Assembly (NCBI GenBank): GCA_902531985.1
Contig: CACAGG010000003.1
Coordinates: forward strand, 1 to 54,869
Direction: 5' to 3'
Source: an uncultured marine group III euryarchaeote
GTDB lineage: Archaea > Thermoplasmatota > Poseidoniia > MGIII > CG-Epi1
DNA: 54,869 nucleotides
The translations under genes were made by a program, and so were the position numbers. The notes below the pieces were generated by a model. The model ran no database searches. It had not been told where the DNA came from and saw nothing but the letters and a program-made list of their open reading frames with translations. Positions 439-41,893 of the stretch are shown here, piece by piece (the first letter of the stretch is position 1; every line of letters starts with the position of its first letter).

Positions 439-546
439 TGGTGCCGGGGGCGGGGTTCGAACCCGCGGCCTTCGGATGTCCCAGGCATAGCCGGAACTAT
501 TTTTACCCTATGAGTCCGACGCTCTACCAGGCTGAGCCACCCCGGC
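439..546 (-). tRNA. tRNA-Met (CAT, elongator-like) with a 31-nt intron and encoded CCA
   Basis: Reverse complement GCCGGGGTGGCTCAGCCTGGTAGAGCGTCGGACTCATA|gggtaaaaatagttccggctatgcctgggac|ATCCGAAGGCCGCGGGTTCGAACCCCGCCCCCGGCACCA folds as a cloverleaf only if nt 478-508 are removed (canonical position 37/38). Confidence 0.92.
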
Positions 547-11950: not shown

Positions 11951-12853
11951 TCATTCCTTCAATTTAGTTATTGTCTTTTTGTATTTATCTAGTACTAATT
12001 CAGTTTGGGTTTCAATTTTCTGCCATCCCTTCTTTAGTGATCCCAATCTCAAATGGAATGCACTGGTAGGAGGTCCTCCGTCTGCAGCTCTACATCTTTC
12101 AATAAGTCCTAATGAAATTAGTCGATTCAAGTGCCTATATGCAGTAGGCCTAGTTGTTTCAATCCAAGCAGCGATTTCCTCGGCAGTCCATGCCCTATCA
12201 GGACGCTGAAAGAAGCATTCGTCTAAGATTTTGTATGGCATTGATTCGTGATACGGATAATGATGGTTTGATAGAAGTCCAATTCCTCTTCCAATTGCGC
12301 TTAAGTCGCTTTCGTAGCTTTCTTCTTCATCTCTCCTAATTTCTCTTAGCTCGATTTCAAAAGCTTCTTCTTTATCTAGCAAAATCATACCATCAGGTAC
12401 AACCTCTTTTGATTCCTTTAAAGTGTTATTCAAATTATTAATAATTTCACGGTATGTTTCAAGACATATTCGAGCTCTATTTTCAACACCAGACCAAGCT
12501 TTTTCTAGGTCATAATGCCATAATCTTACTTTTTTTGGATCTTCAGCTTTTCCAGGAAAGTCTTCAGTCAAAAAGCCTACTTCTCTTAACCATTGTAAAT
12601 GTCTGTAAACTCCTTGTAATGGAACTCCTAATTCTTTTGCAATTTCAGATGTTGTCCAAGATTTGTCGGGCTTTGGTATCAAACATTTTGTAAATAATAA
12701 AATTCCAGTTTTAGCTCTTTTTGTTTCTTTGGCTTTTGGTCCATCAGTTCCTAAGAACCCAATTGCTTGTAAGAAATCTGAAACTAATAGTTCCTTAGAA
12801 GACCCGTAAGATTCATTCAAATTTCGTATTCTTAGTTTAAACATTATTCCCAC
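11951..12853 (-). CDS. Putative transcriptional regulator with two winged-helix units
   Basis: Two internal HTH copies: PDKSWTTSEIAKELGVPLQGVYRHLQWLREVGFLTED and PDRAWTAEEIAAWIETTRPTAYRHLNRLISLGLIERC. Confidence 0.7.
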   Translation of the reverse strand: MGIMFKLRIRNLNESYGSSKELLVSDFLQAIGFLGTDGPKAKETKRAKTGILLFTKCLIPKPDKSWTTSEIAKELGVPLQGVYRHLQWLREVGFLTEDFPGKAEDPKKVRLWHYDLEKAWSGVENRARICLETYREIINNLNNTLKESKEVVPDGMILLDKEEAFEIELREIRRDEEESYESDLSAIGRGIGLLSNHHYPYHESMPYKILDECFFQRPDRAWTAEEIAAWIETTRPTAYRHLNRLISLGLIERCRAADGGPPTSAFHLRLGSLKKGWQKIETQTELVLDKYKKTITKLKE

Positions 12854-33772: not shown

Positions 33773-34465
33773 TTATTTTCCTAATATTTCCTTCTTCATC
33801 TGCTTGAACTCGTCGTCTTCAATATGGCCTTTCTCTTTCATTTCAGTCAGTTTTTCTAATCTGGCGAATCTGTCATCTCCACCAGTTCCAATATTAGAAC
33901 GATTGATTACACTGTCCTTAACAATAGTATCACGGTCATCGACGTAGTCTCCGTGAACTACAGTTTGGTCCACTCTTTTCTGGTCAAGAATCTTTTGCCT
34001 TAGTCTTTTGGCATCCTCTAATTTTCCAAATTTTTCGTAAGCAGCTATTGCTGAGTTATAGTCTAATCTTTCTTCTAATATCTCACCTTGTCGAGATTTA
34101 ATCAATTTGGTTAATTTTTTATAAGGACTTCTTGCGGTTTCAGAGTGCAATACAATTTGGTTCACTCCTACTGCGTTTGGTGGTTTTTGCCCTTCAGATA
34201 AATAGACTAACTGCTCATTCACAGCTTTTGTTATCGGCCCAAAAAAGATCCCTCCATCTTCTATGACTTCGTCTATATCCATTTTATCTAATCCGAGTGT
34301 GCCTATGTCATATGTATACGTTCCTTCTCTTGGCGCGATTAGATGTCGCTTTTCTAATTTAGAATTATCTAATTTTGGTACTATCACTCTAATAATAGTG
34401 TCGTAGATCTCTATTATTTCATATTCTTCGCACTTAAATCTTTCTAGGGGTTTGTTTTCTACCAC
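33773..34465 (-). CDS. Array paralog E: unique N-term + TPR-like hairpin + shared 'KDSVxNRSxIG'/SHOCT-like C-terminal module
   Basis: AIAAYEKFGKLEDAKRLRQKILDQKRVDQTVVHGDYVDDRDTIVKDSVINRSNIGTGGDDRFARLEKLTEMKEKGHIEDDEFKQMKKEILGK. Confidence 0.8.
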   Translation of the reverse strand: MVENKPLERFKCEEYEIIEIYDTIIRVIVPKLDNSKLEKRHLIAPREGTYTYDIGTLGLDKMDIDEVIEDGGIFFGPITKAVNEQLVYLSEGQKPPNAVGVNQIVLHSETARSPYKKLTKLIKSRQGEILEERLDYNSAIAAYEKFGKLEDAKRLRQKILDQKRVDQTVVHGDYVDDRDTIVKDSVINRSNIGTGGDDRFARLEKLTEMKEKGHIEDDEFKQMKKEILGK

Positions 34466-34571
34466 GATACAGATTAATGAGATGTATTTAAATTATTAAT
34501 TTTAAACTGCAATGTCTAAATAATCACCAGGTGCATTGGTAAAATTTTGGTCTAATCCCGGAAGTATTCAT

Positions 34572-35078
34572 TTATCCAATAATCTCCTTCTTTATTTTTT
34601 CAAATTCTTCATCACTAATAAGTCCTTCAGCAAGCATTTCTTTGAGTTCTTTGAGTTTTGTAAATTTATCTTCTCCACCAGAGCCAATATTTGATTTGTT
34701 GACTACGCTGTCTTTAATTTCAGTTTTGGTAACTTCGTCACCGTGGACCACTTTCTGAGAAACTTTTACTCGCTTCTCAGCCAATAATTTATTGTTTATT
34801 CTTTCAATGTCTTCGTGATACAGATTGTTTTCTATGGGCTTAAACTCTTTGTATAACCTATCAGCTTCTCTGTAATTCTCTAATGCTTGATTGTAATCAT
34901 TTAAGTCTTCAGATATTCTTCCATCCTCGTATGCAGTCTTCGCCATTCCTTCTAAGTCTGGCCAAATTTCTTCAGAAATAGTTGATAACCCAAAACCTAT
35001 AAGAATCATTAACCCAAAGATTACTAATAGAAGAAATCCCATTACAATCAGAAACACTATTACGCCACTAGCAGTCAT
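34572..35078 (-). CDS. Array paralog D: TM N-term + shared C-terminal module
   Basis: MTASGVIVFLIVMGFLLLVIFGLMILIGF...VVHGDEVTKTEIKDSVVNKSNIGSGGEDKFTKLKELKEMLAEGLISDEEFEKIKKEIIG. Confidence 0.8.
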   Translation of the reverse strand: MTASGVIVFLIVMGFLLLVIFGLMILIGFGLSTISEEIWPDLEGMAKTAYEDGRISEDLNDYNQALENYREADRLYKEFKPIENNLYHEDIERINNKLLAEKRVKVSQKVVHGDEVTKTEIKDSVVNKSNIGSGGEDKFTKLKELKEMLAEGLISDEEFEKIKKEIIG

Positions 35079-35698
35079 TTCCCCAGAATCTCCTTCTTCA
35101 TCTGCTTGAACTCGTTGTCGTCAATAAGACCTTCTTTTTTCATTTCAGTCAGTTTTTCTAATCTAGCGAATTTGTCATTTCCACCAGAGCCTATCGTTGA
35201 GCGATTTAATATGCTATCTTTGATGACTGTATCGCGGTCATCTACATAGTCACCTTTAATGTAATTTCCTTTGACAACAGTTTGTTGTTTTGATAATTTT
35301 TCATAGTTTACTTTTGCCCTCATTACTAGGCTTTCTACCTCACTCCATTTCCTTTTGTTTCTGAATGCATCATCGCTTTTAAAGTAAATTATATGATTAT
35401 GATTATATTTTTCATTTTTACCGAATTGTATGTGACCATGTGAATTACCAAAAAAGCTAAACGATGGTTTAAGATGACTTATTGAAATATTATCAAAGCT
35501 TATGTGGGCTTTGTATCCATTGCCGTGTTGACCAAACTGCGGCATAGGCCAAGATTCAGTCCAACCAAATCGTTTAATTTCTATTTCGATATGATCTTCA
35601 AATATAGTTAGTGTATCTCCTCTTTCGTTTGTAAATTCATATAATAGGTACCCTTTATCGGTGTCAGCTTGTTTCTGTAAAAAATCGTCAAAACTCAT
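35075..35698 (-). CDS. Array paralog C: beta-rich N-term + shared C-terminal module
   Basis: YLLYEFTNERGDTLTIFEDHIEIEIKRFG...VVKGNYIKGDYVDDRDTVIKDSILNRSTIGSGGNDKFARLEKLTEMKKEGLIDDNEFKQMKKEILGK. Confidence 0.8.
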   Translation of the reverse strand: MSFDDFLQKQADTDKGYLLYEFTNERGDTLTIFEDHIEIEIKRFGWTESWPMPQFGQHGNGYKAHISFDNISISHLKPSFSFFGNSHGHIQFGKNEKYNHNHIIYFKSDDAFRNKRKWSEVESLVMRAKVNYEKLSKQQTVVKGNYIKGDYVDDRDTVIKDSILNRSTIGSGGNDKFARLEKLTEMKKEGLIDDNEFKQMKKEILGK

Positions 35699-36369
35699 TT
35701 GCCCAGAATCTCCTTCTTCATCTGCTTGAACTCTTCGTCGTCAATCAGGCCTTCTGCAAGCATTTCTTTCAGTTCCTTCAATTTTGTAAATTTGTCGTCG
35801 CCACCAGAGCCAATACTAGATTTACTGACGACGCTATCTTTGATTTCGGTTTTGGTGACTTGGTCTCCGTGGACAACTGTTTGATCCACTTTTTTCAGAT
35901 CTGTAACAATTTTTCTCACTCGCGCAGCTTCCTCTGGTTTACCCATCTTATCATAAATTTCTATAGCTCGTTTATAGTCAAGATGTTCTTCACACTGTTT
36001 TGCTTTTTGTATGCGGGCCTTTGGTAAAAGGTCCTCTAAATGAGCTTGTGCTTCTTTTATTGACTTACTCCCCATTAATATGAAACTTGTGTACGTTCCA
36101 TCATCATCTAATGCATCAAAGCTAGGGCACTCCAAGTGTTTATTGAAAGTAAATGAATCTATATTTCCCAAAGAGACTATCAGTGACTTCTCTTTTGCTT
36201 CGAAAATAATCCGTTGATTTGTAATGTAAAGCGAACCTGGTTTATATTTGTCACGAGGTTTTCCTTCAATAATCAGAGGTTTACACAAAACGGTATGTCC
36301 TGAAAAAAAACCTGATTTATTATGTTTTACAAATATTACGTGTTCCCCTGTATGTAGATCAGTTTTCAT
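35695..36369 (-). CDS. Array paralog B: GRAM/PH-like N-term + TPR-like hairpin + shared C-terminal module
   Basis: GSLYITNQRIIFEAKEKSLIVSLGNIDSFTF (PH/GRAM-like) ...VVHGDQVTKTEIKDSVVSKSSIGSGGDDKFTKLKELKEMLAEGLIDDEEFKQMKKEILGK. Confidence 0.8.
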   Translation of the reverse strand: MKTDLHTGEHVIFVKHNKSGFFSGHTVLCKPLIIEGKPRDKYKPGSLYITNQRIIFEAKEKSLIVSLGNIDSFTFNKHLECPSFDALDDDGTYTSFILMGSKSIKEAQAHLEDLLPKARIQKAKQCEEHLDYKRAIEIYDKMGKPEEAARVRKIVTDLKKVDQTVVHGDQVTKTEIKDSVVSKSSIGSGGDDKFTKLKELKEMLAEGLIDDEEFKQMKKEILGK

Positions 36370-36941
36370 TTCCCTAGAATCTCCTTCTTCATCTTTTCAT
36401 AGTCATCTTCATTGATTAATCCTTCATCGAGCAGGGATTTCGCCTCGCGTAATTCTTCAGCCTTAGATGATTTTCCGCCAATATTGGAACGATTGAGAAC
36501 ACTGTCTTTGATTTCTGTTTTGGTTATTTGGTCTCCTTGAATTACGGTTTGATCTACTTTCTTCTGATCAATTATTATTTGTCGGATTCTTTTTGCTTCT
36601 TCATGATTGTTCATATATTCCCATAATTGGATTGCTTCATCGAATCGAAGTAAGTTTTCAAGTTCTTTGGCTTTTATTTCTCGGAGTCGGTTTCCCTCTT
36701 CATCAATTATTTCTTTAGCTTTGATTCTGTAGTTCTTTATGTCTGAGATTGTTTTTTCATCCATTCCATATGTATGGTGTTTTAGTATTTTTATTGCTTC
36801 TTCAATTTTATCCAAGTCATGAGAATCAATATATGTTTTCGCTTTTTCCAGCGAATCATCCCAATATTTCCGGAATTTTTTGATTGCCTCCTCGTTGTCA
36901 TCCTGAACTTTAGATGATTTAGAGTTTCCGAACCAGCCCAT
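36366..36941 (-). CDS. Array paralog A: helical N-term + TPR-like hairpin + shared C-terminal module
   Basis: FDEAIQLWEYMNNHEEAKRIRQIIIDQKKVDQTVIQGDQITKTEIKDSVLNRSNIGGKSSKAEELREAKSLLDEGLINEDDYEKMKKEILGK. Confidence 0.8.
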   Translation of the reverse strand: MGWFGNSKSSKVQDDNEEAIKKFRKYWDDSLEKAKTYIDSHDLDKIEEAIKILKHHTYGMDEKTISDIKNYRIKAKEIIDEEGNRLREIKAKELENLLRFDEAIQLWEYMNNHEEAKRIRQIIIDQKKVDQTVIQGDQITKTEIKDSVLNRSNIGGKSSKAEELREAKSLLDEGLINEDDYEKMKKEILGK

Positions 36942-39156: not shown

Positions 39157-39852
39157 ATGCGCGTTTCATGGGATATTATGCGTGATGGTCTTCCAATCAT
39201 AATTGTTAATCTCAAAACGTACGAGCAAGGTTACGGTGCAGACGGTTTCGAACTCTGTAAGATAATGGAAGAAATATCCTTAGAGCATAATGTAAACCTA
39301 GCAGCTGCAGTTTCAGCAATAGACTTAATCGATTACAGTGATAATTTGAAAATACCAATCTTTGCACAACATGTTGACGGAGTAACTTACGGTTCGAACA
39401 CTGGTTCTATACTTCCTGAAGCAGTCAAATATTCAGGAGCAGTCGGCACTCTGGTAAATCACGCAGAATGTCAAATGAGCTGGGAGGAGATTGAGAAGAC
39501 AATAAATCGTTGTAAAGAGCTTGGTCTCTCGACTGTACTTTGTACGGCTGATCTAGAGTCTTCAGAGAAAGGATCGCATTTGAATCCCGACATGATTGCA
39601 GTTGAACCTCCTGAATTGATAGGTGGAGATATCTCAGTTTCATCAGCAAAACCTGAGATCATTTCAGATACTGTAGAAATAGTAAAGGAGATTAATTCAG
39701 AAATTTCAGTTCTTTGTGGTGCAGGTGTTAAAAACCAAGAAGATGTTTCCAAAGCAATATCTCTGGGTTCCGAAGGAATTCTTCTTGCATCAGGAGTAGT
39801 AAAATCTTCAGAGCCTCGAAAAGTTTTAATGGATTTAATTAAAGGATTATAA
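39157..39852 (+). CDS. tpiA: Triosephosphate isomerase (archaeal)
   Basis: PIIIVNLKTYEQGYG, IFAQHVDGVTYGSNTGSILPEAVKYSGAVGTLVNHAE, VEPPELIGG, VLCGAGVKNQEDV. Confidence 0.93.
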   Translation: MRVSWDIMRDGLPIIIVNLKTYEQGYGADGFELCKIMEEISLEHNVNLAAAVSAIDLIDYSDNLKIPIFAQHVDGVTYGSNTGSILPEAVKYSGAVGTLVNHAECQMSWEEIEKTINRCKELGLSTVLCTADLESSEKGSHLNPDMIAVEPPELIGGDISVSSAKPEIISDTVEIVKEINSEISVLCGAGVKNQEDVSKAISLGSEGILLASGVVKSSEPRKVLMDLIKGL

Positions 39853-39867
39853 TCAATTTTATATAGG

Positions 39868-39930
39868 GGCTGGAGTAGACAACCTCAGGTTGCCTACTGC
39901 TTGTAATTGTTACAACTCGTCAGGCCAGCC
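39868..39930 (+). promoter_or_regulatory. Three-way-junction-like dyad structure upstream of groES (RNA leader or operator)
   Basis: P1 GGCTGG 39868-39873/CCAGCC 39925-39930; P2 AGTAGaCAACCtcaGGTTGcCTACT 39874-39898; P3 TTGTAA-ttg-TTACAA 39901-39915. Confidence 0.65.
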
Positions 39931-39954
39931 TATCCTTAAAATGGAGGAAAAAAA

Positions 39955-41893
<1,939 letters not shown>

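Follow-up and report, generated by a model that had tools for sequence, protein, structure and literature searches.

The palindrome at 39876-39896 of the DNA analysed here, a stretch of 54,869 nucleotides (the window), is very probably the operator of an autoregulated heat-shock repressor resembling Phr and HSR1, which would lie over the groESL transcription start and be common to the promoters of grpE-dnaK, hsp20 and the regulator gene. The groES loci place the window's organism in the Marine Group III (MGIII) euryarchaeotes of the class Poseidoniia. The features of the locus are listed in Table 1, and the tpiA/groES neighbourhood is as it had been placed in an earlier sequence-only reading of this DNA.

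Table 1. Features at and upstream of the groESL operon (positions in the window)
Feature	Position	Strand	Basis and remarks
tpiA	39157-39852	+	5' neighbour of groES
TATA box TTTATATA, putative archaeal core promoter of groESL	39858-39865	+	Sequence; TCAATTTTATATA invariant in relatives; function by consensus
P1 5' arm GGCTGG	39868-39873	+	Without support as an RNA stem: in several relatives it no longer pairs with 39925-39930
Putative operator palindrome TAGACAACC-TCA-GGTTGCCTA (P2)	39876-39896	strand-neutral	Core ACAACC-N3-GGTTG at 39879-39892
Predicted groESL transcription start	39886-39890	+	About 26 nt past the TATA-box centre; inferred
P3 TTGTAA-ttg-TTACAA	39901-39915	+	In the groES 5' leader; stem conserved only in closest relatives
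groES ribosome binding site (tggagg)	39942-39947	+	Sequence; GGAG invariant among relatives
groES (Cpn10)	39955-40221	+	Pfam PF00166, E 2.1e-24
groEL, bacterial-type (group I) chaperonin	40232-41893	+	In operon with groES; NCBIfam TIGR02348 GroEL, 729 bits vs cut-off 582

The palindrome (centre 39886) begins 10 nt 3' of the TATA box, and the TCAATT upstream of this box probably carries a BRE. Since archaeal transcription usually starts some 26 nt past the centre of the TATA box, we predicted the groESL start to be near 39888, within P2. Comparison of the groES, grpE, hsp20 and regulator promoters revealed that, by position relative to TATA, the palindromic site is in each case 3' of the TATA box, at or after the predicted start; the distance from the start of TATA to the start of the site was about 21 nt at groES, 27-32 nt at the regulator, 36-41 nt at most grpE and 29-31 nt at hsp20 promoters. 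The transcripts of grpE and of the regulator gene may include the site.

Alignment of groES leaders revealed that TCAATTTTATATA was invariant in 11 same-genus leaders and that GTAGACAACCTCAGGTTG was likewise invariant within the genus, the P2 core being unchanged in every same-genus leader. In more distant MGIII the palindrome was kept as GACAACCGCCGGTTGCCTA, and in MGII as TAGACAACCTCAGGTTGTATAG, the remainder of the leader having changed or being missing in both.

An exact search for the pattern ACAACCNNNGGTTG in 40 related genomes yielded 49 core matches in 21 genomes of the same family (MGIII), compared with 6 for the reversed pattern used as control. These MGIII genomes contained 44 distinct exact sites, which, tallied by hand, were distributed as follows: 40 at four promoters (18 groES, 13 HTH regulator, 6 grpE and 3 hsp20) and 4 within ORFs. 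In a gene-centred check of promoters, which allowed mismatches and sought the site 3' of the TATA region, the palindrome ACAACCnnnGGTTG was found in MGIII at 1) groES in 19/19 genomes, 2) grpE(-dnaK) in 19/19, including the window's own genome and two copies from one partly contaminated genome (G006), 3) hsp20 in 12/12, and 4) the gene of an ArsR-type winged-helix regulator in 16/16, one of them degenerate (in L112, where 3 mismatches separate it from the palindromic form). The site was present at 0/18 MGIII thermosome promoters, where the best candidates had 3-4 mismatches, and the same check found a good site missing before four MGII groES genes and before MGII grpE genes. The sequence-only reading had mentioned, as its alternative, an operator over the groESL start; by comparative genomics this alternative is strongly supported, and the heat-shock theme of that reading is upheld by the promoters at which the site occurs.

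The window's own genome has a grpE promoter made up of TTTTATATA (TATA), then ACAACCTCAGGTTCA, then the grpE start; dnaK was seen after grpE in a relative (G007), and hsp20 was not found in the window's own genome, which is 75% complete. The consensus of 59 distinct sites is T-A/T-N-ACAACC-TNA-GGTTG, with AAC and GTT the strongest positions, and the sequence flanking the site differs among the four genes. A scan of the own genome with two mismatches allowed gave 23 places versus 26 in the reversed control; because there was no excess, weak matches alone carry no meaning, and those places that were inspected had a promoter context at groES and grpE only. Among the matches listed, a motif scan of viral sequences gave scattered hits of no informative value, and two viral GroES loci were distant (36% identity).

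Two further occurrences of the site were noticed. The grpE promoters of genus g2 (L069, L072, L133 and L142) carry half sites that overlap, CAGGTTGACAACCTGAGGTTGAC; two dimers might bind there. In three MGII genomes, an almost perfect site (CTATACAACCTCAGGTTGAGTAGTG in L137) precedes the gene for a protein of about 200 aa (L137:1242-1868; likewise L138 and L145), which was dropped from the hsp20 count because the L137 protein had no Pfam or NCBIfam match; its C-terminal end resembles, by eye, that of a small heat-shock protein, so that it may be either an sHsp that has diverged or a heat-shock protein of a new type.

The candidate regulator is an HTH protein, 223 aa long in the close relative L097, with matches to Pfam HTH_20 and HTH_5 above cut-off. 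Its best PDB match was 2p4w (E 3.5e-13, residues 4-160), which we take to be Phr of Pyrococcus furiosus, the entry title saying only that it is an ArsR-family regulator. The best NCBIfam match was Phr_regulator (NF053602; 57.6 bits, E 1.2e-15), far under the curated cut-off of 320 bits. Judged by its homology, the position of the site, the autoregulatory site and the targets, the system is of the Phr/HSR1 kind, though its regulator falls outside the curated Phr family. A homologue was present in 139/146 related genomes, and the palindrome was situated directly 5' of the regulator start codon across MGIII and in most of the MGII genomes sampled. The segment (S/T)QQAVVKHL, which is expected to hold the recognition helix, was kept between MGII and MGIII, the whole proteins being about 32% identical. 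Among eleven homologues from outside Poseidoniia, several had a promoter with a related site, for example CTATACAACCATTAGTTGTAAACC in L335, and others had none. In the window's own genome a contig end cuts the regulator gene, leaving just the C-terminal 32 residues, with the promoter lying beyond the contig. It was also noticed that some MGIII regulators (L097-L101:1501-2169) have four extra residues, KMHK, inserted into the winged-helix domain immediately ahead of the conserved QLS segment; the insertion is absent from other homologues, and the operator is unchanged in its carriers.

We infer that the site is bound by the Phr-like regulator, with repression as the consequence and heat as the cause of release. 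As a dimer, this ArsR-type winged-helix protein of the Phr/HSR1 kind would bind ACAACC-N3-GGTTG and, at normal temperature, would block RNA polymerase at the TATA-bound groESL promoter, the same repressor occupying the promoters of grpE-dnaK, hsp20 and its own gene. Heat or unfolded-protein stress would then release the repressor, and all four units would be transcribed. Poseidoniia also encode other winged-helix proteins, for example (by eye) the HTH-like protein at window 11951-12853, and such a factor might bind the palindrome as the operator of the chaperone regulon, with the Phr-like regulator being merely one of the targets. However, this is unlikely, since the promoter of the regulator gene itself has the site in MGIII and in most of the MGII sampled, and has a related form of it in some other Thermoplasmatota; moreover, autoregulation together with a heat-shock role is the hallmark of Phr and HSR1, its nearest relatives among characterised proteins (PMC9133787).

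Phr binds at a site composed of TTTA at -10, TGGTAA at the start and AAAA at +10, which overlaps the start site; it blocks RNA polymerase and controls hsp20 and its own gene (PMC9133787); its regulon is also covered in PMC10746257. The MGIII system resembles it in having a homologous regulator (the 2p4w match given above), a site over the start, predicted in our case, and targets that include hsp20 and the regulator gene, whereas it differs in the site sequence, in having bacterial-type GroESL and GrpE-DnaK as targets and in its host, which is a marine Poseidoniia archaeon and not a hyperthermophile. HSR1 of Archaeoglobus fulgidus autoregulates from CTAAC-N5-GTTAG, and its gene shares an operon with hsp20 (PMC9133787). 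The AAC-N5-GTT core and its spacing are common to this operator and the MGIII ACAAC-N5-GTTGT, as are the own-promoter site and the control of hsp20, predicted in MGIII, a likeness of operator and targets; in contrast, the outer operator bases differ, and the MGIII regulator gene is a separate unit. In bacteria, HrcA-CIRCE and HspR-HAIR follow the same logic, a repressor palindrome at groESL and dnaK promoters, but their sites are unrelated in sequence and spacing to that of MGIII, and the MGIII candidate regulator is ArsR/Phr-like. CIRCE is TTAGCACTC-N9-GAGTGCTAA.

A 2022 review named Phr and HSR1 as the only known archaeal heat-shock regulators (PMC9133787). Our analysis predicts a third such system beside them, in abundant uncultured marine archaea. 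The kind of repressor was already known, and what would be new here are the different operator consensus and the bacterial-type chaperones as targets; no description of the MGIII operator was found in the open-access literature searched, which misses most subscription journals and makes this absence weak evidence. We lean slightly towards the broader view that one Phr/HSR1-type repressor with an ACAAC-N5-GTTGT operator serves much of the phylum Thermoplasmatota as its heat-shock switch, controlling bacterial-type GroESL and GrpE-DnaK in Poseidoniia and leaving the native thermosome outside. The arrangement suggests how bacterial-type chaperone operons joined archaeal TATA/TBP promoters under an archaeal repressor, and the predicted operator, regulator and target list are open to in vitro test.

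The three inverted repeats that the sequence-only reading had described between tpiA and groES are present, with arms at 39868-39873/39925-39930 (P1), 39874-39884/39888-39898 (P2 as then drawn, with one A-C mismatch) and 39901-39906/39910-39915 (P3), and the minimum-free-energy RNA fold of these 63 nt is the structure drawn at the time (-21.6 kcal/mol). The accompanying statement that such nesting is unlikely by chance does not hold for the single sequence: the fold had z = -1.79, with 14/200 dinucleotide shuffles reaching equal folding energy, and the window contains 15 inverted repeats of the 9-3-9 type (<=1 mismatch) versus a mean of 9.8 and a maximum of 16 in 30 Markov simulations. Since the single sequence is within chance, the case for P2 rests on the relatives, among which P2 is distinguished by its conservation plus its recurrence at heat-shock promoters.

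The main proposal of that reading had been a three-way junction acting as an RNA leader or riboswitch. An RNA element in the groES mRNA, be it a leader hairpin, a riboswitch or an RNA thermometer, would agree with the fold; any transcript starting upstream of P2 could also fold it into a hairpin whose loop is 3 nt long, and, as noted for grpE and the regulator, the site may fall within transcripts. However, among ten distinct same-genus leaders the standard pairs were kept at 80% in P1 and 78% in P3 (3/6 P3 pairs deviating solely through unpaired cells), and P3 was absent from the g2 and MGII groES leaders. P2 was 100% paired in the same set, with 8/10 pairs invariant in sequence, a pattern typical of protein recognition and not of RNA pairing. 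Covariation analysis, proposed as a check in the earlier reading and run on the leaders of relatives, gave a score of 0.119 versus 0.113 in shuffles, 178/500 of which reached the observed score, so that covariation above chance was not found, an outcome that the earlier reading had named as counting against its proposal; RNAalifold revealed no pair changed on both sides in these leaders, and an Rfam scan of the window detected tRNAs and 5S rRNA alone, with no RNA family at the groES leader. The differing flanks at the four genes also speak against an RNA element, and because the groES start is predicted inside P2, the mRNA would lack the 5' half of each of P1 and P2. An RNA element is thus highly improbable and the three-way junction is not supported; for P1 and P3, a chance origin is quite likely. 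That the inverted repeats of this intergenic region are all due to chance agrees with the fold and palindrome statistics of the single sequence, but it is refuted for P2, which is conserved and recurs before the same set of genes in different genera and families, and carries next to no weight.

Two features elsewhere in the window were observed in passing. Five paralogous small proteins are encoded in a tandem array at 33773-36941 (-); they have a common C-terminus, KVDQTVVHGD...KDSVVNKSNIGSGG...LKEMLAEGLI, and an N-terminal part that differs in each. One of the Rfam tRNA matches, at 442-546 (-), is 105 nt long and was without an ARAGORN counterpart; its length suggests an intron-containing tRNA.
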